A stretch of 64,000 nucleotides of DNA, taken from NCBI GenBank assembly GCA_001648575.1, contig LQXN01000067.1, positions 186,001-250,000 of the forward strand. The letters run 5' to 3'. The position numbers were made by a program, and so were the translations under genes. The notes beneath the pieces are model-generated. The model saw nothing but the letters and a program-made list of their open reading frames with translations, searched no databases and was not told the origin of the DNA. Shown here one piece after another: positions 2,505-60,128 of the stretch. Source of the stretch: Sutcliffiella horikoshii DSM 8719 (lineage in GTDB: Bacteria; Bacillota; Bacilli; Bacillales; Bacillaceae_I). Each line of letters opens with the position of its first letter. Position 1 is the first letter of the stretch.

Positions 2505-5500
2505 TTAAAAAAGTGAAAGCTGGTTTTGATCTGGCAGTCCTTCGAGGCAGCCGTGGTTGTCCAGATACTCAAGAATCGTTTTGGAAATTCTTCCTCTTTG
2601 TTGGAGATCCTCTTTGGATAGAAATTCTCCGTCTTTCCTTGAATTTACAATATTGATGGCAGCATTGGTCCCCAACCCGGGAATGGAGTTGAAAGGCGGG
2701 ATAAGTGAATCCCCTTCTATTAAGAAGTCAGTTGCGCTTGATTTATATAAATCTACCTTTTTGAAGGAATAGCCGCGTTCACTCATTTCAAGTGCCAATT
2801 CCAGTACTGTCAGCAAGGATTTTTCCTTTGGTGATGCTTCCAGGCCTTTCGCATTTATCTCTTCCACCACTTTACGTATGGCGGCAGAACCTTTAACCAT
2901 TGTATCGACATCAAAATCGTCTGCCCTGACAGTAAAGTAAGCCGCATAATACATAAGTGGAAAATGCACTTTGAAATAAGCAATACGAACAGCCATAAGT
3001 ACATAGGCTGCGGCATGTGCTTTAGGGAACATATATTTGATTTTCAAGCAGGAATCAATATACCAAGCAGGCACATCATTCTTGATCATTTCTTCTTTGA
3101 ATTCATCAGAAAGACCTTTACCTTTACGTACGGACTCCATAATCTTAAAGGCCATTGAAGGATCTAAACCCTTATAGATTAGATAAACCATGATATCATC
3201 ACGACACCCTATCACTTCACTGAGCGTACAGGTCTTGTTATGAATCAGTTCCTGTGCATTTCCGAGCCACACATCCGTACCATGAGATAATCCGGAGATT
3301 TGGACCAGCTCTGAGAAGGTGGATGGCTTCGTATCCTCTAACATCTGGCGGACGAAACGGGTTCCAAACTCCGGAATCCCCAGTGTGCCGGTCTTACACA
3401 TAATTTGTTCCTCTGTTACACCAAGCGATTCTGTGCCGCTGAATATTTTCATCACATACGGGTCGTCAGTCGGTATGGTCTTGGGATCTATTCCGCTGAG
3501 ATCCTGCAGCATCCTGATAACAGTTGGATCATCGTGTCCAAGTATATCAAGCTTAAGCAGGTTATCATGAATGGAATGGAAATCAAAATGGGTCGTTTTC
3601 CATTCTGAATTTTGATCATCTGCAGGATATTGAATAGGCGAAAAATCAAAAATATCCATATAATCCGGCACTACTATGATTCCCCCTGGATGCTGGCCGG
3701 TGGATCTTCTTACACCCGTACAACCCGAGGATAGCCTGTCTATTTCCGCCCCGCGCAGAATTAGATTTCTATCATTGGCATAACCTTTCACATAACCATA
3801 TGCTGTCTTATCAGCTACCGTTCCTATGGTACCTGCGCGGAAAACGTACTCTTCCCCGAATAACACCTTTGTGTAGTTATGTGCTCTTGGCTGATACTCA
3901 CCAGAGAAGTTCAAATCGATATCAGGAACCTTGTCCCCTTTAAATCCAAGGAACGTTTCGAACGGGATATCATGCCCATCCTTTGTAAATGCTTCTCCAC
4001 AATTTGGACAATTCTTATCAGGCAAGTCAAATCCTGACCCGACAGAACCATCATCGAAGAATTCGGATAGCTTACAGGTCGGACACACATAATGCGGAGG
4101 CAGTGGGTTAACCTCCGTTATTTCTGTCATCGTTGCAACAAAAGAAGAACCTACCGATCCACGAGAACCTACTAGATAACCATCATCCAGTGATTTCTTC
4201 ACAAGCTTTTGAGAAATTAAATAGATAACGGCGAATCCATGCCCGATAATACTTTTCAATTCTTTTTCAATTCGCTTTTCTACAATTTCTGGCAAGTCTT
4301 CCCCGTAGATACTTCTTGCTCTTGTATAACTCATTTCCCTGATTTCTTCATCAGCACCTTCAATTTTCGGTGTGTAAAGGTCGTCTTTAATTGGTTTTAT
4401 CTCCTCAGTCATCTCTGCGATCTTTTGTGTATTGGTGACTACGATTTCCTTCGCCTTTTCCTCCCCTAAAAAGGAAAAAGCAGCAAGCATTTCATCGGTC
4501 GTCTTAAAATGCACATCAGGAAGCTGATGCCTGTTAAGGGGATTTGCCCCTGATTGAGAACGAACAAGGATTTCACGGTGGATCTTGTCAGTTTCTTTCA
4601 AATAATGGACATTTCCTGTTGCCACTACTGGTTTGTCCAACTTTTCACCAAGTTTTACAATGTTGGTGATGATTTCTTTGAGTGCTTTCTCATCTCTGAC
4701 AAGTTCCAGCTCCAACAAGTGAGCATAATTGCTCGGTGGCTGGACTTCAATATAATCATAGAATTCCGCGATGCCTTCTACTTCATCGGGGGATTTCTGC
4801 ATCATCCCCTCGAAAACTTCACCCTTATCACATGCAGTGCCTACAATTATACCTTCTCGTAACTTCTGCAGCTGAGATCGAGGGATCCTTGGGACACGGA
4901 AAAAGTAATTCATATGTGATATAGATACGATTTTAAATATATTCTTTAATCCTATATCATTTATGGCAAGCAATGTCACATGGGATGGTCTTGCTCGTTT
5001 ATATGCATCTGTCGTTCCAGAATGCTCATTCAGTTCATCATGGTATGTGATGCCTTTTTCCATCGCATCCTTGAGCATCTTCACCAAAAGGTATCCTGTG
5101 GCTTCTGCATCGTAAATTGCTCGGTGATGTTGAGTCAATTCGATATCGAACTTTTTACACAGGGTGTTCAGGCGGTGATTTTTTAAAGATGGGAAGAGTA
5201 GCCTTCCAAGTTCCAAGGTATCGATGACAGGGTTTTTCGCTTTTCCAAGCCCTATCCTCTTAAAGCCGATATTCAAAAAGCCCATATCAAAACTGGCATT
5301 ATGCGCAACTAGGATATCATCTCCCATCCATTCGGAGAAATCCCTTAAGACATCTTCCACTTCAGGCGCATTTCTCACCATATCATCGGTGATGCCTGTC
5401 AGATTGATGGTTGTGGCAGAAAGGGCATGATGTGGATTGGCAAAAGACTCAAACCTGTCGATTATCTCTCCGCCTTTCACCTTTACAGCCGCCAGTTCAA

Positions 5501-6944: not shown

Positions 6945-8633
6945 TTAACGGAGCTTTTGTAACAATTGGTCAACAGTTAATTCTTCCTTGTCACCTGTTT
7001 TTCTCCATTTGACTTCAACCACTTTTTCATCTGCTCTTTTACCGACTGTTATACGAACCGGCAATCCTATCAAGTCGGAGTCGGTGAATTTGACACCGGG
7101 ACGCTCTTGACGATCGTCCAACAAGACAGCCTTGCCTGCATTTTTAAATTCTGTATAAATTTCTTCTGCCAATGAGGCTTGTGTTTCGTTTTTCATGTTT
7201 ACAGGAATGACGTGTATATCATACGGGGTCACTGCCTGTGGCCATACTATTCCATTTTCATCATGATACTGTTCCACAATCGCAGCAAGGACGCGGGATA
7301 CCCCTATGCCATAGCACCCCATGATCATCGGTTGGTTTCTGCCATTCTCATCTAAGAAGTTTGCTCCCATCGCTTCACTGTAGCGAGTGCCAAGCTTGAA
7401 GATATGACCTACTTCTATTCCTTTTGCAAATTGGATGACACCTTGTCCATCCGGGGATAGATCTCCTTCCTCAATGAAACGCAAGTCGGCGTATTGTTTC
7501 ACTTCGAAATCTTTGGAAGGATTGACATTTTTATAGTGGACATCCTCTTCATTAGCACCAGTTACCGCATTGACCATATATTCAACTGCCGTATCTGCAA
7601 CGATTTCCACAGTATCTTGTACACCGATCGGCCCTAAAGATCCAACGGAGCAGCCCATTACCTTTTGCACTTCTTCAGCAGTAGCAGTTTCTACCACGGA
7701 TGCCTGGAAAAGGTTCTTCACTTTTACATCATTTATTTCATGGTCTCCTCTTGCCAACACTAGAACGAATCTTTCATCCACTTTGAAAACAATGGATTTA
7801 ATCAGGTCCATTTCAGCCAATTCCAAAAAGCTTGCCACATCTTCGATAGTTTTTTGCCCTGGAGTGCTAACCTTTTCCTTTTCCAATACCGCCTCAGATT
7901 TCTTTTCATAGTTGGCGACGACCGGAGCCATCTCGATATTCGCTGCAAAAGAGGATTCATTGGAATAGGCAATGGTATCTTCCCCGATTTCAGAAAGAAC
8001 CATGAACTCATGTGTATCTTTTCCTCCCATCGCTCCGGAGTCGGCAATGACTGCACGGAAATTCAATCCGAGCCTTGTGAAGATATTAGAATAAGCTGTA
8101 AACATCTTTTCATAAGTCTCATCCAATGACTCCGCATTTGCATGGAAAGAATAGGCATCTTTCATAAGGAATTCACGTCCTCTTAACAGGCCGAAGCGAG
8201 GGCGTTTTTCATCACGGAATTTGGTTTGTATTTGATAAAGCGAAAGAGGAAGCTTTTTATAGGATTTCACTTCATCCCTTACAAGTGTTGTAATTACTTC
8301 TTCGTGTGTGGCACCAAGTGCGAATTCACGATTATGTCTGTCTTTTAATCTCATAAGTTCTGGCCCGTAGGAGTACCATCTTCCGGATTCCTGCCATAAT
8401 TCTGCTGCTTGCATCGCCGGCATCAGCAATTCCACCGCTCCTGCGTTTTCCATTTCATCCCTGACGATATCTTCAACTTTCTTAAGCACTTTTTTCCCAA
8501 GTGGAAGGAAGCTGTAAATACCGCTCGTGTTTTGGCGGATATATCCTGCTCTAAGCAGTAGTTGATGACTTTTAACCTCAGCGTCTGATGGTACTTCTCT
8601 TAATGTTGGAATAAGCATATTGCTTTGTTTCAT
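6945..8633 (-). CDS. proS: Prolyl-tRNA synthetase, bacterial type with editing domain
   Basis: A class II aminoacyl-tRNA synthetase of 562 residues that charges tRNA-Pro. Motif 2 ([18 protein letters not shown], about 137-155) and motif 3 ([17 protein letters not shown], about 440-457) flank an inserted editing domain (about 225-400) that clears mischarged alanine. A C-terminal anticodon-binding domain includes [21 protein letters not shown]. The ATG at 8633 follows GGGGTG by 5 bases. No T-box leader is visible upstream, where the space is taken by repeats. Confidence 0.97.
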
Positions 8634-8692
8634 TTCTGCACCCCATAACCATTTTCTATAGTATTTATGTATTTTTGGAATTAAAATTAACT

Positions 8693-8830
8693 CCCTGTTT
8701 CCTTACGTTCCAGGTGTTCGCTTTCCGCGGGACGGTGCTTGAGAGCCTCCTCGGGCTACGCCCTGCGGGGTCTCATGAATATCGCTATCCCCCCGCTGGA
8801 GTCTCACATCTTGCACTTCAGTCAACAGGG
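8693..8830 (+). repeat. Structured intergenic repeat, copy 1
   Basis: A GC-rich element of about 138 bp bounded by CCCTGTT and AACAGGG. Internal blocks shared with the other copies are CGCTTTCCGCGGG, GAGCCTCCTCGG, TGCGGGGTCTC, CGCTAtCcCCCGC-GGAGTCT and CACTTCAGTCAACAG. It lies between rseP and proS, in opposite orientation to copy 2 and 51 bases from it. Confidence 0.85.
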
Positions 8831-8881
8831 GCAATTTCTTATGACAAATAAATTTCTTTATCTCCATTAATAAACATTTTA

Positions 8882-9008
8882 GCTGTTGATTGGAGTATAG
8901 GGCGAAGACTCCTGCGGGAGGTAGCGCATAGTGGAGACCCCGAAGGCTTGCCGAGGAGGCTCCACAGGCGCCCCGCGGAAAGCGAAGCCCAGTGCGGAAA
9001 TCAACAGC
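8882..9008 (-). repeat. Structured intergenic repeat, copy 2 (inverted relative to the others)
   Basis: A 127-bp element with perfect 10-bp terminal inverted repeats GCTGTTGATT and AATCAACAGC. Read on the minus strand it is closest to copy 4. It shares TTTCCGCACTGGGCT, CTTTCCxCGGGGC, CTTCCTCGGC-like and GCGCTACCTCCCGxAGGAGTCT blocks. It lies directly after the rseP terminator. Confidence 0.88.
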
Positions 9009-9030
9009 GGTGAAAAACATATCGATTAAT

Positions 9031-9065
9031 GAAAGAAAACTTGCATCACATTTCATGATGCAAGT
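9031..9065 (-). terminator. Intrinsic terminator of the uppS-cdsA-dxr-rseP operon
   Basis: The minus-strand ACTTGCATCA and TGATGCAAGT form a perfect 10-bp stem with a 7-base loop, followed by TTTCTTTC. It is 21 bases after the rseP stop. Confidence 0.8.
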
Positions 9066-9086
9066 CCATGTGCTTATATTTCTATT

Positions 9087-10346
9087 TTACAGGAAGAATT
9101 TCTGAATGTCATTCCATGTTACGACAAGCATCAATAACATCAGCAATGCAAAACCGATAAAGTGGACAAGACCTTCTTTATGGCGGTCGACAGGCTTTCC
9201 TCTAACTGCTTCTGCGGCAAAAAACATAAGCCTTCCGCCATCCAAAGCCGGGATCGGCAGTAAGTTGATGATTCCTAAATTGATGCTAAGGACGGCAGCC
9301 CATCTCATCAAAAGGAACACGCCGGATTCTGCTACCACTTCAGTCGATTTGTAAATGCCGACTGGACCAGATAACATGTCTAAGGAAAACTGACCTGTAA
9401 TCAATTTACCTAGCCCAATTACAATTTCTTTGGACCAGTTAAAAGTTTCGGTTGCTGCTTTAGGGAAAGAACCCAAGAATGATTTTTCCATCGGCATGTA
9501 GACACCTATGATTCCGCGGGTCTCCCCTTCTATCGTTTCTGCTTTAGGAGTTATCGGGATGGTCTCGGATTGTCCATTTCTTTCAATCACAAATTGAAGT
9601 TCCTCACCCGGATTCACCTGTATGATCTTTACGACTTCTTCCCATGTCGATACTTCAGTGTCATTGATTGCGACGACTTTGTCACCTTGTTGCAATCCAG
9701 CTGCCTGGGCAGCGCCATCCTGGGTCAATTCACCAATCAACGATTCATTGACCGGATAGCCTTGTACCATGCCTAGGAAAGTAAAGATGAAAAACGCTAA
9801 AATGAAATTCATCATAGGTCCGGCAAAGATGGCCATCGTCCGTTGGCCAAGTGTTTTGGAACCAAATTGCCTTGTGTACGGGGCGTTCTGAATTTCCTGC
9901 CCATCCATGACAAAATACGATTCTTCACTTACCTTGTATTCTTTTAATATTTCTTCTTCATTCAGCTCATAGCCTCTGATTACAAGTTCCTTCTCAAGGT
10001 CTGCATGCTCGACCTCTATGACCTTTGCATTCGGGTGCTTGTCTTTGTTGTTGACAACCACTTTGTTGACTTCCCCTTTTGCATTGAATAAAAGGCCAAT
10101 ATGATAACCGGGCTTGATTTCAATCGTTTCTGGATCCTCACCAGCCATACGAACAAAACCGCCTATAGGAAGAAGTCTGATCGTATAAACAGTTTCATTT
10201 TTTTTGAAGGAAAATACCTTCGGACCAAATCCGATGGCAAACTCTCTGCAAAGTATGCCGGCTCTTTTTGCAAAAACAAGATGACCTAATTCATGAACAA
10301 ATACTAGCACTCCAAAAATAATGATAAAAGCGATAACAGTATTCAC
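9087..10346 (-). CDS. rseP: Site-2 zinc metalloprotease RseP/RasP family
   Basis: A membrane protease of 419 residues that cleaves transmembrane segments of anti-sigma factors and leftover signal peptides. The zinc site HELGH is at residues 18-22 inside the first membrane helix. A PDZ domain lies at about 190-275 (GDKVVAINDTEVSTWEEV), and the second active-site motif NLLPIPALDGGR is near 361-372, followed by a last membrane helix. The start is GTG at 10346, after GAGGTGG. It follows dxr by 13 bases, as in other Bacilli. Confidence 0.95.
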   Translation of the reverse strand: MNTVIAFIIIFGVLVFVHELGHLVFAKRAGILCREFAIGFGPKVFSFKKNETVYTIRLLPIGGFVRMAGEDPETIEIKPGYHIGLLFNAKGEVNKVVVNNKDKHPNAKVIEVEHADLEKELVIRGYELNEEEILKEYKVSEESYFVMDGQEIQNAPYTRQFGSKTLGQRTMAIFAGPMMNFILAFFIFTFLGMVQGYPVNESLIGELTQDGAAQAAGLQQGDKVVAINDTEVSTWEEVVKIIQVNPGEELQFVIERNGQSETIPITPKAETIEGETRGIIGVYMPMEKSFLGSFPKAATETFNWSKEIVIGLGKLITGQFSLDMLSGPVGIYKSTEVVAESGVFLLMRWAAVLSINLGIINLLPIPALDGGRLMFFAAEAVRGKPVDRHKEGLVHFIGFALLMLLMLVVTWNDIQKFFL

Positions 10347-10359
10347 TAGATTTCCACCT

Positions 10360-11511
10360 CTAATCTATTAGTGAACGAACATAATGCCTTGTGTCCAAAT
10401 CCACTTCTTTAATGGTTTCCAAATCCGGGGCCATTTGAATAGTATGTTTGGACATGGCATTTTCAATAAATGTTTCTATGGTCAAAAAGTCGATTTTTCC
10501 GTTTAGGAAAGCATCTACTGCAACTTCATTGGCTGCATTTAGTACGGTCGTCATCGTGCCTCCAGCTTTCCCCGCATCATATGCATACTGTAAACACCGG
10601 AAACGGTTAAAGTCCATCTTTTCAAAATGCATTTTGCCCATCTCCATAAAGTTCAGCCTCTTCCCTCGTGGATGAGGCAACCTGTCTGGATATGTCAGAG
10701 CGTATTGAATCGGAACCCTCATATCAGGAGTTCCGAGCTGTGCTATGACACTGGTATCGTGAAATTCCACCATTGAGTGAACAACGCTTTCCCTGTGGAG
10801 TACCACTTGTATATCTTCATACGGGATACCAAATAGCCAATGGGCTTCTATCACTTCTAATCCCTTGTTCATCATGGTGGCTGAATCTATCGTAATTTTC
10901 GCACCCATGGACCAGTTGGGGTGATTGAGGGCATCTTCCCTCGTCACTCCTATTAATTCATCTCTTGTCCGGTCGCGAAAGCTTCCACCAGATGCCGTAA
11001 GGATAATTGTATTGATATTCTTCTCTTTTTCCCCTTGTAAACATTGATAAATAGCCGAATGCTCGCTATCTACTGGTAAAATGGGAACTTGATGCTTCCT
11101 GGCTGCTTCCATCACAATATGACCTGCTGTAACAAGTGTTTCCTTATTGGCAAGGGCAATCACCTTTTTGCATTCTATGGCATGCAATGTAGGAACAAGC
11201 CCTACACTTCCCATAACGGCATTAACCAGGACATCTGCTTCTTTAACGGTAGCAACTTCAATCAACCCTTCTTCCCCATACACAAAACGTATATTCGAGG
11301 AAGAGTATTCAAGTTTCAATGCTTCACAATCTTCTTTAGTCTGGACAGAGACTACCAGTGGAGAAAATTCATTGATTAACTCTTTTGCAACCTTGACATT
11401 TCCGCCTACACTGAAAGCAAGCAACTCGAATTGATCATTATGTTGCCTTATGACTTCTATCGTCTGTACCCCTATTGAGCCTGATGCTCCCAATAAACTT
11501 ATTTTCCTCAC
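10360..11511 (-). CDS. dxr: 1-deoxy-D-xylulose 5-phosphate reductoisomerase
   Basis: The second enzyme of the MEP pathway to isoprenoids, forming 2-C-methyl-D-erythritol 4-phosphate with NADPH. At 383 residues it is the normal length. It shows the NADPH-binding GASGSIG at 8-14, the substrate/metal loop [11 protein letters not shown] (about 147-157), the ASGGSFR loop and the [14 protein letters not shown] block. The start is GTG at 11511, following AGAGGTGA. Clustering with uppS and cdsA links isoprenoid supply to undecaprenyl and phospholipid synthesis. Confidence 0.96.
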
Positions 11512-11556
11512 TCACACTCACCTCTTTCAAACAAAAACCTTCTTCTATCTATTGTG

Positions 11557-12342
11557 TCAGAAAAGAAAGATATGTATAAAATGTAAAAGTGGCAATACGA
11601 AAAGAAGGCTGTCAAAACGATCTAATATACCACCGTGACCAGGTAAAATGGAACCCGAGTCTTTAATTTTGTAATGTCTCTTCAAAGCAGATTCCACTAA
11701 ATCGCCAATTTGTCCAAAAATGGATAGCAGGATCGCAATGAGGATGGTTATTAGCAGGGAGTGTTCAAATCCTACAGTGAATTGAAAAATGAATGCTACA
11801 ACAACTGCACAAACGACCCCGCCAAGTGACCCCTCCACTGTCTTATTTGGACTGATATCCGGCCACAACTTAGTTTTCCCCATAGATTTTCCAATGAAAT
11901 ATGCCCCAGAATCCGTTGTCCATATTACAAACAAAGCAAAGAATACGTATGCTAGAGCAAGTTCCCGTATTTCAATGAAATAATAGAAACCCAAACCGAC
12001 ATATAAAGTGGAAATAAGCAAAAAGCCTACATCATCAAACGTAAATTTATTCTTTGAAAGGACTGTATATGAGAGTAACAACAAGAATATTAGTAAGACA
12101 AACTCCATTTTGGTCAATACCAACTCTGAATTCATTTCCGAAGGTATCAACAGAAACCATAATAACAGCAAGGATAGTACACCTGGTACACTTGCCAAAG
12201 ACATCTGTTTCATTCTCAGCGCTTCAAACAAGCCCACAGATGCCAAAATATAGATGAAAATGACAAACGGTAAATTTCCGTAGATTACGATTGGTAAAAA
12301 TACTGCTGCTGCAATGGCAGCTGTAATGATTCTTTGTTTCAT
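11557..12342 (-). CDS. cdsA: Phosphatidate cytidylyltransferase (CDP-diglyceride synthase)
   Basis: An integral membrane protein of 261 residues with about seven or eight hydrophobic helices. It makes CDP-diacylglycerol from phosphatidate and CTP, the branch point of phospholipid synthesis. The family signature near the C-terminal third is visible: [28 protein letters not shown] and later [26 protein letters not shown]. It is 18 bases downstream of uppS in the same operon. Confidence 0.95.
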
Positions 12343-12360
12343 TGTATGTCCAACACCTTC

Positions 12361-13134
12361 TTATATACCACCAAATCTTCGCCCGCGCATTTGATAACTG
12401 TTGATTGCTTCATATAAATGTTTTTCATCAAAATCAGGCCATAGTACATCTGTAAAATAAAATTCCGCATATGCCAATTGCCACAGCATAAAATTGCTTA
12501 ATCGTATCTCACCGCTTGTACGAATGAGAAGATCTGGATCAGGTAATAAATTGCTGAAAAGATATTCAGAGAACATCTCTTCTGTTAATTGATCGGTTGT
12601 AAGCTCGTTATCTTTCACAGCAGCAGCTACATCCTTAACAGCACGCAGGATTTCGTCACGTCCCCCATAATTTAATGCAAAGTTGAGAATAAGTCCAGTG
12701 TTATCCTTCGTCTTCTCCATAGCATTTTCGACAGCACGCAATGTGTGCTCAGGTAAATCGGACTTGTTCCCCATGAGCCTGACTTGCACGTTTTCTTCCA
12801 TTAATTCGGGCAAAAATGTCCCCAAGAATTCCTCTGGCAGTTTCATTAAGAAATCGACTTCAAGCTTGGGTCTTTTCCAATTTTCAGTAGAGAAAGCATA
12901 CATAGTCAGAACTTTTACACCTAGGCTGTTTGCGGCCTTAGTGATTTTCCTAACGGTTTTCATTCCTTCATGATGCCCGGCTACTCTAGGGAGTGCACGC
13001 TTCTTCGCCCATCTCCCGTTTCCGTCCATGATGACGGCTATATGTTCCGGGATGGGATGCTTCTCAATTTCATTCTTCAAGCTAAGCGATTTAGAGGTTT
13101 CTTTGCCTCTCCACTCTTGTATTTTCTTCAGCAT
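12361..13134 (-). CDS. uppS: Undecaprenyl diphosphate synthase (isoprenyl transferase)
   Basis: A cis-prenyltransferase that condenses isopentenyl diphosphate onto farnesyl diphosphate, giving the lipid carrier of cell-wall synthesis. In 257 residues it shows the catalytic Asp motif IMDGNGRWAKKR (about 35-46), HHEGMKTVR, YAFSTENWKRP, LNYGGRDEI and the C-terminal PDLLIRTSGEIRLSNFMLWQ block. The start ATG follows GGAGG by 6 bases. It is the first gene after the frr terminator. Confidence 0.97.
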   Translation of the reverse strand: MLKKIQEWRGKETSKSLSLKNEIEKHPIPEHIAVIMDGNGRWAKKRALPRVAGHHEGMKTVRKITKAANSLGVKVLTMYAFSTENWKRPKLEVDFLMKLPEEFLGTFLPELMEENVQVRLMGNKSDLPEHTLRAVENAMEKTKDNTGLILNFALNYGGRDEILRAVKDVAAAVKDNELTTDQLTEEMFSEYLFSNLLPDPDLLIRTSGEIRLSNFMLWQLAYAEFYFTDVLWPDFDEKHLYEAINSYQMRGRRFGGI

Positions 13135-13203
13135 AAAAATCCTCCATTAAAAATAAACAGATGCACCTAAAAGGCTTCAATCCATTTATAGTAACAGTAT
13201 TAA

Positions 13204-13233
13204 CAAAAAAACCCCCTGTAAACATTAGAGGGT
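13204..13233 (-). terminator. Intrinsic terminator after frr
   Basis: The minus-strand ACCCTCT and AGGGGGT form a 7-bp stem with one G-U pair and a 9-base loop, followed directly by six T. It is about 33 bases after the frr stop and separates pyrH-frr from uppS-cdsA-dxr-rseP. Confidence 0.8.
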
Positions 13234-13265
13234 CTTTCCATCTTTCTATTTTACATGTAAATCGC

Positions 13266-13823
13266 TTATACTTCCATGATTTCTTTTTCTTTTTCTTTTG
13301 TAACAGAATCTACTTTAGCAATGAACGAGTCAGTTTGCTTCTGAATATCTTCTGTATAACCGCGCAATTCATCCTCGGTGATCTCACCGCTCTTTTCAAG
13401 TTTCTTCAAATCATCGTTTCCATCACGACGAATATTGCGGATTCCCACTTTTGCTTCTTCAGAAATTTTCTTGATCTGTTTCACTAGATCCTTACGTCTT
13501 TCTTCTGTTAAGGCAGGAATGGAAATGCGGATCACTGAGCCATCATTGGATGGATTAAGACCTAGATCCGCTCTGATGATCGCTTTTTCGATATCTCCCA
13601 AAGAAGATTTATCATAAGGTTGAACCACAAGAAGTCTTGCTTCAGGTACATTCATAGAAGCTAATTGGTTAACCGGAGTTGGAGCACCATAGTAATCTAC
13701 CGTAACTTTGTCCAATAACGCTGCACTTGCACGGCCTGCACGGATTGTCGCTAACTCTCTTGAAAAAGCTTGTACCGCTTTTTCCATTCTTTCTTTCGTT
13801 TGATTAATAACTTGGTTTGCCAT
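13266..13823 (-). CDS. frr: Ribosome recycling factor
   Basis: A 185-residue RRF that splits post-termination ribosomes with EF-G. It has the normal length and family sequence: [36 protein letters not shown] in domain I/II and [19 protein letters not shown] in the C-terminal helix. It starts 3 bases after the pyrH stop, so the two are co-transcribed, as in most bacteria. Confidence 0.97.
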
Positions 13824-13825
13824 GA

Positions 13826-14548
13826 TTATTTCCCCCTCACAATCGTTCCAATATTTTCACCTAACACCACTCGTTTGATGTTTCCTTCTTCCATGATGGA
13901 GAAAACGATAATTGGAATATCGTTATCCATACATAGGGAAGAAGCAGTTGAATCCATCACAGCCAGTCCTTCACGTAAAACATCCAGATAGGATAAAGTT
14001 TCGTATTTGGTTGCTGTTGCATCAATGGACGGGTCTGCACTATACACGCCGTCTACATTATTTTTTGCCATCAAGATGACATCTGCTTCTATTTCAGCTG
14101 CACGCAGGGCTGCTGTTGTGTCTGTTGAGAAGTAAGGATTCCCTGTACCTGCTGCAAAGATCACTACCCGCTTCTTTTCCAGGTGCCGAATCGCTTTCCT
14201 TCTTATGTATGGTTCTGCAACCTGACGCATTTCAATAGAAGTCTGTACACGTGTTTGTACGCCTGAATTTTCAAGGCTGTCTTGAAGTGCCAAGGAGTTC
14301 ATTACAGTTGCCAGCATGCCCATATAATCCGCTGATGCACGGTCCATGCCCATCTCACTGCCGACTTTACCTCTCCAGATGTTACCGCCGCCTACAACAA
14401 CCGCTACTTCTACTCCAAGTTCGGTCAATTCTTTTACCTGATGTGATACGGATTTGATGACAGTGGGATTGATGCCGAAGCCTTGTTCACCTGCAAGTGC
14501 TTCCCCACTTAGTTTAAGTACGATACGTTGATATTTAGCTTGAGCCAT
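13826..14548 (-). CDS. pyrH: UMP kinase
   Basis: An amino-acid-kinase-fold enzyme of 240 residues that phosphorylates UMP to UDP and is normally regulated by GTP and UTP. Motifs are the N-terminal [19 protein letters not shown], the glycine-rich [28 protein letters not shown] and [20 protein letters not shown] use the ATG at 14548 (MAQAKYQ), which follows GGAGGT; the upstream ATG at 14560 lies in the ribosome binding site itself. Between it and tsf lie repeat copy 3 and the tsf terminator. Confidence 0.96.
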
Positions 14549-14595
14549 AGTTACCTCCATTAATATTAATAAAAGGGTTGAGATTTTCGTTTACT

Positions 14596-14724
14596 CCTGT
14601 TTCCTTCCGTTCCAGGTGTCCGCTTTCCGAGGGGCGGTGCTAGAGCCACCTCACGACGCTTCAGGGGTCTCAACCTACCGCTACCTCCCTTTGGAGTCTC
14701 ACACCTTGCACTTCAGTCAACAGG
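14596..14724 (+). repeat. Structured intergenic repeat, copy 3
   Basis: A 129-bp element bounded by CCTGTT and AACAGG, in the same orientation as copy 1 and close to it (CTGTTTCCTTxCGTTCCAGGTGT, CTTTCCGxGGG, GTCTCACACCTTGCACTTCA). It sits between the tsf terminator and pyrH. Confidence 0.85.
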
Positions 14725-14755
14725 GAAATAGGTCAGAGATATTCAAGCCTATCCT

Positions 14756-14790
14756 TTCAAAAAGAGGAACACAAATTGTGTTCCCCTCTT
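14756..14790 (-). terminator. Intrinsic terminator after tsf
   Basis: On the minus strand AGAGG(G)GAACACA pairs with TGTGTTCCTCT across a very small loop, with one bulge, followed by TTTTTGA. It is 17 bases after the tsf stop. Confidence 0.8.
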
Positions 14791-14806
14791 ATATCTGTTG
14801 TTCCTC

Positions 14807-15688
14807 TTATTTTTTAACTTGGCTCATTACTTCTTCAGCAAAGTTGTCTTGACGTTTCTCGATTCCTTCTCCAACTTCATAGCGGATGAAAGATTTAACT
14901 GTAGCGCCTTTGCTCTCTACGAATTGACGTACTTTCATGTCAGGGTTTTTAACGAAAGTTTGGTCAAGCAGACAGATATCTTCGAAGTACTTTCCAAGAC
15001 GTCCTTCTACCATTTTAGCCACGATGTTTTCTGGCTTGCCTTCGTTTAATGCTTGCTCAGTTAATACTTTGCGCTCGCGGTCTGCTTCTTCTTGAGAAAC
15101 TTCGTCACGAGAGATGTATTTAGGGTTGATTGCAGCGATGTGCATAGCAACGTCTTTAGCTGCAGCTTCATCAGTAGTACCTTCAAGAAGAGTCAATACA
15201 CCGATGCGTCCGCCCATATGCAAGTAAGCACCAAAAGCGTCTGCGTCAGTTTTTGTAACGATAGTGTAGCGACGAAGAGTCAGTTTTTCCCCGATTTTAG
15301 CGATAGCAGAGTTGATGTGCTCAGAAACTGCAACACCGTTGTCCATTTTCGTTTCAAGAGCAACTTCTACAGACTCAGGCTTGTTGGAGATAAGGAATTC
15401 TCCTAACTCGTTTACAAGTGTTTTGAAACCTTCATTTTTAGCAACAAAGTCAGTCTCGGAGTTCACTTCAAGGATAACCGCTTCGTTTCCTTTTGTAACT
15501 ATCGCAGTCAGACCTTCAGCAGCGATACGATCTGTTTTCTTAGCAGCTTTAGCAATACCTTTTTCACGTAAGAAATCGATTGCTTTTTCCATGTCTCCGT
15601 TTGTTTCCGTTAACGCTTTTTTGCAATCCATCATTCCAGCGCCAGTTTTTTCACGTAATTCTTTTACCATTTGAGCAGTAACAGCCAT
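14807..15688 (-). CDS. tsf: Translation elongation factor Ts
   Basis: The nucleotide exchange factor for EF-Tu, 293 residues. It shows the N-terminal UBA-like domain ([21 protein letters not shown]), the TDFVAKN motif that contacts EF-Tu (about residues 80-86), the DVAMHIAA region and a C-terminal [13 protein letters not shown] block. The start ATG follows GGAGG by 9 bases. A strong terminator and repeat copy 4 lie between rpsB and this gene, so its expression is probably lowered relative to rpsB or comes partly from its own promoter, which I could not identify. Confidence 0.97.
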
Positions 15689-15744
15689 TATTCATTTCCT
15701 CCTTAGAATATGTAAATAGTTTCATTTCGATAGTCATATTTTCC

Positions 15745-15780
15745 AAAAAAAAGTGATAAAAGGCTTTCCCCTCTTATCAC
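15745..15780 (-). terminator. Strong intrinsic terminator between rpsB and tsf
   Basis: The minus-strand GTGATAAGAGG and CCTTTTATCAC form an 11-bp stem with one G-U pair and a 6-base loop, followed by eight T. It lies 57 bases before the tsf start, downstream of repeat copy 4. Confidence 0.85.
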
Positions 15781-15806
15781 CTTTTCTTTAGGCCCTATTA
15801 AACACC

Positions 15807-15935
15807 GCTGGTGATTTCCGCACTGGGCTACACTTTCCACGGGGCACTTGCAGAGCTTCCTCGGCCTAAGCCTGCGGGGTCTCTGCTAAGCGCTACCTCC
15901 CGTAGGAGTCTACGCCCTGTGCTCCAATCACCAGC
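15807..15935 (+). repeat. Structured intergenic repeat, copy 4
   Basis: A 129-bp element with perfect 10-bp terminal inverted repeats GCTGGTGATT and AATCACCAGC. Compared with copy 2, the fifth base of the left arm (T to G) and its partner in the right arm (A to C) have both changed, which keeps the pairing. It lies between rpsB and tsf. Confidence 0.88.
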
Positions 15936-15988
15936 TAGGATACTCGTTTTCAGCAATATACTTTAAAAGAGCTTTTTCTTAAATCAAA

Positions 15989-16708
<720 letters not shown>

Positions 16709-59692: not shown

Positions 59693-60058
59693 TTATCGAA
59701 TTTCTTTAATACGCGCTTTTTTACCACGTAATGCACGTAGATAGTAAAGTTTCGCACGACGTACTTTACCACGACGAACAACATCGATTCCCTCGATCTT
59801 TGGAGAATGCACAGGGAATGCACGCTCAACTCCAACACCGTAAGAGATCTTACGAACTGTGAAAGTTTCGCTGATTCCGCCGCCACGACGTTTGATTACT
59901 ACTCCTTCATACACCTGAATACGCTCACGCGTACCCTCTACAACCCTAACGTTAACACGTACAGTGTCACCAGGACGGAAAGAAGGAAGATCAGTTTTCA
60001 ACTGCTCTTGAGTAATATCTTGAATTAATTTTTGCATAGTTTTCTGCTCCTTTTCCAC
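59693..60058 (-). CDS. rplS: 50S ribosomal protein L19 (bL19)
   Basis: A 121-residue protein with family blocks [67 protein letters not shown] and a basic C-terminus [22 protein letters not shown]. It lies at the 30S-50S interface. It has its own promoter at the end of trmD and a structured leader. Confidence 0.98.
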
Positions 60059-60060
60059 AG

Positions 60061-60128
60061 ATGCTCATACCATACTTGTTTGATGCAGCGGAACATCGTT
60101 TTTAGACATAGCGATAGCTAAGTCACAA
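60061..60128 (-). ncRNA. Candidate L19 leader upstream of rplS
   Basis: After the predicted promoter, the minus-strand leader folds a hairpin from GAC-TT-AGC and GCT-AT-GTC, and a second from GATG and CATC, before AAGGAGC. A ribosomal L19 leader is known upstream of rplS in Bacilli; I assign it by position and small stems, not by a model match. Confidence 0.45.

Follow-up and report, generated by a model that had tools for sequence, protein, structure and literature searches.

A folded intergenic repeat of Sutcliffiella horikoshii as the core of small gene-less mobile elements of at least two kinds

The intergenic repeats described here were found in a window of 64,000 nucleotides, the whole stretch of DNA that was analysed, from Sutcliffiella horikoshii DSM 8719 (GCA_001648575.1, contig LQXN01000067.1, positions 186,001 to 250,000 of the forward strand). 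Our results indicate that the four repeats of the window are the cores of gene-less miniature inverted-repeat transposable elements (MITEs), whose mobility is well supported, and that the same folded core is carried by at least two kinds of element, named chassis A and chassis B, the first of which often lands in hairpin loops. The repeats had been noticed in an earlier reading of the sequence alone (the sequence-only reading), and all four were re-found at their coordinates and in gene spacers. Copy 1 (8694-8829, plus strand) and copy 2 (8882-9008, minus strand) occupy the spacer between genes that we take to be rseP and proS, copy 3 (14596-14724, plus strand) lies between tsf and pyrH and copy 4 (15807-15935, plus strand) between rpsB and tsf, with all gene names being putative and judged from the protein sequences. 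The boundaries first drawn fit the hairpin core, but they are not the limits of the mobile unit, which is larger. An open reading frame (ORF) of 117 aa that spans copies 1 and 2 (8703-9056) looks spurious.

The insertion is clearest for copy 4 (GCTGGTGATT...AATCACCAGC), which lies inside a full type B (IS1595-type) MITE at 15791..15974 on the plus strand, where a left terminal inverted repeat GGCCCTATTAAACACC is followed by the core and by a right arm that runs to TTTAAAAGAGCT; the pair of inverted repeats and the duplication were found by script. The left target-site duplication TTTCTTTA (15783..15790) is identical in 7 of 8 positions to 15975-15982 in the best of 16 registers, the right one reads TTTCTTAA (15975..15982, bases read from the sequence), and at a fixed register 6 of the 8 bases match. 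The unit measures 183 or 184 bp, depending on the duplication register. The rpsB-tsf spacer, 300 bp long in this genome, measures 105-136 bp in 14 congeners and 233 bp, with no core match, in the one remaining (L210), and the copy 4 insertion is missing from this spacer in all 15.

Chassis B is ~183-188 bp long, with most units at 180-190 bp, and has the core between inverted ends of ~30 bp, GGCTCTGTTAAA-N4-NTGTTGATTTTT. The left end is GGCTCTGTTAAACACC-GCTGTTGATTTCCGC and the right end GGCTCTGTTAAAGCATACTGTTGATTTTTGC, and the left arm of the core, GCTGTTGATTTCCGC, is at the same time the inner half of the left end. Both ends were present in 31 of 162 distinct flank sets versus 0.1 per run with shuffled flanks, and 16 of these 31 sets, five of them with perfect copies, had duplications matching in at least 6 of 8 bases, a level reached by 3.4% of swapped flanks. 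Four of the 31 sets reach the chassis A thresholds too and probably belong to that chassis. Chassis B with perfect duplications was also seen in two genomes of other families of the order (L261 and L262), and none of ten copies from G043 and G085, genomes of yet another family, passed for both chassis B ends. These elements are short, have no transposase gene, are present in many copies (at least 150 cores) and have empty counterparts in the rpsB-tsf spacers of congeners, as expected of MITEs. The suggestion of a small non-autonomous mobile element in the sequence-only reading is thus borne out by the inverted ends, the 8-bp target-site duplications, the empty sites and an autonomous relative of the IS1595 family.

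That relative was found among plasmid records searched with the consensus chassis B end. Plasmid NZ_CP062975.1 of Pontibacillus sp. ALD_SL1 carries a 2.2-kb element with passengers, GGCTCTGTTAAAG ends as on the MITEs and a perfect duplication ATTCGAAA, and its transposase belongs to the IS1595 family (NF033547, E 7e-62; PF12762, E 2e-13). Since the ends of copy 4 match those of this transposon, the elements are classed as IS1595-type MITEs, and because of the matching ends we infer that an IS1595-family enzyme may mobilise chassis B in trans. PF12762 gave four matches, in 2 of the 18 genomes of the host's family (G002 and G016). A broken IS1595 remnant in G002 (L250 1396-1797) shares 45% identity with the Pontibacillus transposase across 113 residues and has, ~60 bp off, one B-like end of 13 bases with one mismatch, whose inner half does not match; it is a possible trace of a lost chassis B partner in the genus, and suggestive only. 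A different IS1595-family element, with ends GCCTGTTTTC and 8-bp duplications, was seen at L248 and L249 of the same genome.

Chassis A is a second carrier of the same core, a unit of ~217 bp with ends AGGCCACTGAAAAA and 8-bp duplications. Both of its ends were found in 27 of the 162 flank sets and in none with shuffled flanks. The evidence for its duplications has to be read with two adverse points, namely that duplications of at least 6 bases occurred at 0 of 27 loci in the register first tried and that the ends were moved one base outwards after this outcome. One of the 27 loci, an orthologue, was dropped before the shifted register was tested, where duplications matched in at least 6 of 8 bases at 14 of 26 loci, nine of them perfectly, against 3.1% with swapped flanks; the adjoining registers gave 0 of 26 and 4 of 26. 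A second batch of 20 loci had both ends in 17; in the best of six registers, 16 of these 17 had duplications matching in 6 or more of 8 bases, and 11 were perfect. Chassis A also occurs without the core, as a 156-bp unit with perfect duplications at all three loci of G016.

The sites entered by chassis A are often folded. When the element and one duplication were removed and the resulting empty site was folded, 20 of 26 sites fell in the loop of a predicted hairpin; the same was true of 144 of 600 intergenic positions drawn at random (Fisher p 5e-8), a control whose G+C was unmatched. The same 20 of 26 stands against 2 of 16 sites for chassis B (p 8e-5), and the second batch gave hairpin loops at 10 of 17 sites. 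By eye, ~18 of the 26 sites lie in another copy of the core, mostly in its terminal loop (a script motif flags 17, one of them doubtful), and sites L022, L038 and L039 resemble terminator loops.

Taken together, we consider it probable that the window repeats are the cores of MITEs of this kind, for which mobilisation of chassis B by an IS1595-type enzyme and a role of the fold in transcripts are proposed. In this account, an IS1595-family transposase supplied in trans, and not found in this genome now, would cut at the chassis B ends, and the unit would insert at mostly AT-rich sites with an 8-bp duplication. Chassis A, with 8-bp duplications made by some transposase, would tend to enter hairpin loops, mostly those of an older core copy. 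The long irregular hairpin would act in transcripts, and operon spacers would tolerate an insert that folds on the sense strand, with the consequence that source copies competent to fold would leave most descendants.

Several results speak against this account. Fewer than 6 of 8 duplication bases match in 15 of the 31 chassis B sets, and 108 of the 162 flank sets have no complete chassis at the thresholds used (31 B, 27 A, 4 both), and therefore most copies are decayed or belong elsewhere. Element ends were looked for around window copies 1-3 and none were resolved. No IS1595 transposase (PF12762) was found in the draft genome of the host (67 contigs), and of the four IS1595 elements of G002 and G016, examined as partners, three have other ends, of GCCTGTTTTC or GGCTGTTTTC type; mobilisation in trans is therefore not seen here. 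A partner for chassis A was found neither among inverted pairs of up to 3 kb in ~0.86 Mb, nor among 62 plasmid records with its left arm, none of them from Bacillaceae, nor at the 144 places in 18 genomes with exact ends, where the one facing pair below 3 kb, judged by eye, was the 156-bp coreless MITE of G016.

A different view of the same elements gives the core itself the leading part. It would be a selfish module, captured by at least two chassis with unrelated ends, propagated by whichever transposase is present and serving as the preferred landing site of a sibling element, so that the fold would be selected both as cargo and as target, giving self-nesting elements that avoid genes. The core would be the landing site in this view because chassis A seeks hairpin loops. 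We regard it as possible, with the balance of our judgement lying against it.

Whatever carries it, the core shows strong covariation. An alignment of 45 of the 46 extracted copies (one identical copy was dropped) was made with MAFFT without use of structure, and the 33-pair structure used in the covariation test was itself predicted from this alignment. In it 95.7% of cells pair and both sides have changed in 18 of the 33 pairs; the 124 double-change cells compare with 38.4 after shuffling, none of 500 shuffles reaching 124, and with 9-21 after sliding the partners by 1-3 columns. A larger alignment took the top 150 of 171 matches at 96 selected loci and comprised 148 distinct copies; fitted to the covariance model, and hence of a type biased towards structure, it had both sides changed in 21 of 33 pairs and 521 double-change cells versus 152. 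The hairpin is broken by conserved internal loops, invariant columns include T23, C25, C27-T30 and G97-A99, some of them within stems, and two T.G pairs are conserved on the model strand. The paired differences that had drawn attention to the repeats are all present in the sequence, namely the arm change from TGTTGATT/AATCAACA to TGGTGATT/AATCACCA, that of an inner stem from GCGGG/CCCGC to ACGGG/CCCGT and that of another from GTGGAG/CTCCAC to GCAGAG/CTCTGC, and the full alignment that the sequence-only reading had called for gave significant covariation.

The four window copies differ in how well they fold. Copies 2 and 4, both with GCTGTTGATT-type arms, fold strongly compared with shuffled sequence (z -3.6 to -4.6 as DNA and -5.0 to -7.6 as RNA, copy 4 reaching -5.9 and -7.6 on the two strands as RNA), and folding is weak in copies 1 and 3, which have the diverged end-type CCCTGTT...AACAGGG (z -1.4 and +0.1 as DNA, -1.8 to -2.5 as RNA). 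The covariance model (R1), built from 45 copies aligned without structure, gives copies 1 to 4 scores of 96.5, 134.2, 112 and 134.3 bits, a consistency check only, since all four are among its sources; copy 1 also holds the repeats D1/D2.

Paired changes had been taken in the sequence-only reading as a sign of selection for folding, and this is supported between subfamilies but less clearly within young clusters. Nine such clusters (65 copies, mean divergence up to ~10%) had 60 singletons in stems, of which 41 break a pair, 9 remain G.U and 10 fall in pairs changed on both sides. The fold therefore seems not to be strictly maintained in each copy, and we read the pattern as selection acting on the source lineage while individual copies are weakly maintained. 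Part of the covariation has a serious alternative explanation in template switching during replication (quasi-palindrome correction), which copies a mutation from one arm to the other and yields paired changes without selection. The 10 singletons in double-changed pairs make up ~five pairs, which by a rough estimate exceed what independent mutation would give, and the breaking of the pair by most other stem singletons implies weak constraint in situ. However, template switching should erase internal mismatches, yet the internal loops and the two T.G pairs are conserved, and singletons are rarer in stems (60 of 4230 sites) than in loops (90 of 3964). We give this process about one chance in four.

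Selection on the source lineage leaves the level at which the fold acts to be considered, and here the orientation of the copies points weakly to RNA. The model strand is antisense to flanking co-directional genes in 42 of 50 copies (p 1e-6; 14 of 16 on contig C67 and 28 of 34 in the tiles of G014), a count made by hand on simple ORF calls, which left out 27 of 77 copies that lay between convergent or divergent genes or over a called ORF. The over-ORF exclusions were 8 on C67, where short ORFs counted, and 3 in G014, where an ORF over a copy was disregarded if shorter than 500 bases. Of the eight sense copies, three belong to one tandem array, and window copies 1, 3 and 4 follow the antisense bias. 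On the model strand A.C mismatches also exceed G.T (76 vs 39, the two fixed T.G pairs being left out and the rows not being independent), which would mean that G.U is favoured on the opposite strand, the one mostly found in mRNA.

These hints are offset by others. Window copy 2 is oriented opposite to the bias, and gene orientation is nearly confounded with the direction of replication; where the two can be separated, two copies follow transcription and one doubtful copy follows replication. The two T.G pairs that are fixed on the model strand speak against an RNA reading, and the difference between G>A and C>T in young stems is small (24 vs 14), with 18 vs 33 in young loops, where the per-site rates are similar. 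An RNA-level role in operon spacers is our best guess for the reason for the fold, and one that we would put at about even chances.

A stronger form of this idea is that the repeat is a cis-acting RNA useful to the host, such as a hairpin for mRNA processing or stability, which was spread by transposition and kept in operons. The copies in the rpsB-tsf, tsf-pyrH and rseP-proS spacers and the antisense orientation of the model strand are consistent with it, as is the better RNA folding of the complement of the model strand in all four window copies (-51.4, -63.1, -46.5 and -73.2 kcal/mol for copies 1 to 4, versus -49.6, -56.4, -41.8 and -64.7 for the model strand), the complement being the sense strand for all of them except copy 2. 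In the accessible text on bcr3, a comparable repeat of B. cereus, its presence correlates with longer mRNA half-life, a link from which its own authors call it difficult to conclude (PMC3446304). However, the sites are polymorphic between congeners, the repeat of the rseP-proS spacer points one way in some species and the other way in others, and most changes in young stems break pairs, so that a host-useful RNA seems unlikely to us.

The spacers of congeners allow the polymorphism to be followed. Among 12 aligned rseP-proS spacers, copy 2 is present in the host genome and in L201, one core only is seen in L197-L200 and L203-L205, and L207-L209 have none. At the copy 3 site, copies of the same type stand at the same place in L197, L200 and L205. 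The CCCTGTT-type core of the rseP-proS spacer (L197-L205 and the host genome) lies in opposite orientations between congeners, either by independent insertions or by inversion.

Two further kinds of movement are very improbable. In the first, the repeats would be REPIN-like elements moved as single-stranded DNA by the RAYT (Y1) transposase of the genome; a RAYT-like Y1 gene is present with two matches, and there is a strand bias along a congener chromosome. However, inverted ends and 8-bp duplications, which Y1 transposition is not known to make, are found on the core units. Mobilisation by RAYT was also rejected on the neighbourhood of the gene, which has GGGTCAGACCCC-type palindromes at its start and, by eye, no core within L001 950-2200. 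The gene itself (L001 1249-2064 and L002 1267-2082) overlaps GGGGTCAGACCCC palindromes at its start and adjoins what is presumably a spoIIQ-like gene; contig C28 (3.9 kb), which repeats this stretch, is probably an assembly duplicate.

In the second, no less improbable, the repeat would be of the bcr1 type of B. cereus, which moves in a site-specific-like manner at TTTAT. Size, folding and intergenic place are alike in the text available (PMC6542083, PMC2267715), but the duplications here are 8 bp long, varied in sequence and placed at inverted ends, the core occurs in 65 of the 83 genera sampled across the order, and none of the 6 core-matching plasmid records among 72,556 is from the B. cereus group, bcr1 itself having been reported on plasmids (PMC6542083).

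IS1595-derived MITEs are already known. A 165-bp MITE of H. walsbyi related to ISHwa6 resembles chassis B, as far as its available description goes, in its inverted ends of ~25-30 bp, its 8-bp duplication and its lack of genes (PMC3852290). It differs in having 7 copies, compared with at least 150 cores here, and the elements described here are further set apart by a conserved covarying hairpin interior, by occurrence in 65 of 83 sampled genera and by a core common to a second chassis with other ends. Structured intergenic repeats, bcr1-18, are likewise known in Bacillus, and bcr1-bcr3 are described in the accessible text as folded, intergenic, mobile units of 100-400 bp that often lie within mRNAs (PMC6542083, PMC3446304); they move in connection with TTTAT motifs, and bcr1 is confined to the B. 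cereus group, whereas the duplications here show no such motif and the core is not so restricted. Bhal-1 of B. halodurans, a folded intergenic repeat of 74 bp, was compared by its partial description only (PMC2267715) and could be related to the core.

In a congener (G011), a mobile insertion cassette at L232 551-1716 is bounded by chassis B ends and a perfect 8-bp duplication; it contains a GNAT reading frame and a NUDIX fragment and has no transposase. Mobile insertion cassettes of the MIC231 type consist of insertion sequence (IS) ends around passenger genes, without a transposase. The cassette of the congener is of this kind; unlike MIC231, which is named in the available part of PMC6542083, the copies examined here are gene-less and hold the hairpin core only. 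The insertion of chassis A into loops also has a parallel. IS elements such as IS1397 insert in the hairpin loops of a different repeat, the REP palindromes; they are autonomous and belong to other families, whereas chassis A is a MITE that carries the very type of hairpin that it often hits.

The repeats had no match in Rfam at gathering scores over the whole window, or up to E 5 over 8400-16100; of the marks of a structured RNA family, a covarying structure was found and a match to a curated Rfam model was not. Searches of the openly searchable literature with core and end motif strings returned matches judged unrelated from titles and abstracts, and neither a covarying core common to two chassis nor a MITE landing in sibling loops was found there. 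None of the terms Bacillus, IS1595, compensatory and covariation occurs in the available part of a review on MITEs of prokaryotes (PMC10969869). The sequence-only reading had named a match to some described family as grounds for giving up its view, and such a match was absent from Rfam and from the openly searchable literature. A repeat present a hundred or more times in each of many Bacillus-like genomes seems to be unnamed in Rfam and in openly searchable papers, and it offers many natural copies for studying why a mobile element keeps a fold at the RNA or DNA level. Chassis A suggests that the target of transposition may be a structure and not a sequence, and landing in sibling elements or apparent terminator hairpins would allow it to spread without breaking genes.

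The family is large and widespread. The host genome has at least 52 core matches by DNA search (40 of 237 candidates scored) and at least 150 copies by covariance model (all 150 scored candidates match, of 1221 candidates), and the host together with all 15 congeners has 59 to at least 150 copies per genome. The core was found in all 18 genomes of the host's family and, with stricter filters, in 114 of the 150 genomes of an order-wide sample that included the host genus, these falling in 65 of its 83 genera. The 6 matching plasmid records mentioned above are all from Bacillaceae, and none of 50,697 phage records matched the core sequence. Among 32 Tsf loci of relatives (L041-L072), the sole detectable copy is in Neobacillus niacini PL-B1, 9 kb from tsf, and the tsf spacers outside the genus are therefore without a detected copy; the Tsf of the window is 83% identical to that of Mesobacillus foraminis, its nearest named relative.

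Some copies depart from the usual arrangement. A head-to-tail array of three cores with a spacing of 166 bp was seen at G014:C1:3190508-3190968. A core variant with an extra hairpin of ~50-60 bp (GAAAATGC...GCATTTTC) beside the TCC/GGA stem occurs in both chassis, at L199 (region 3091-3219), L234 (2370-2550), L235 (1290-1480) and L270. Elsewhere in the window, the one Rfam match at gathering scores is a ribosomal protein L19 leader (L19_leader) at 60058-60099 on the minus strand.

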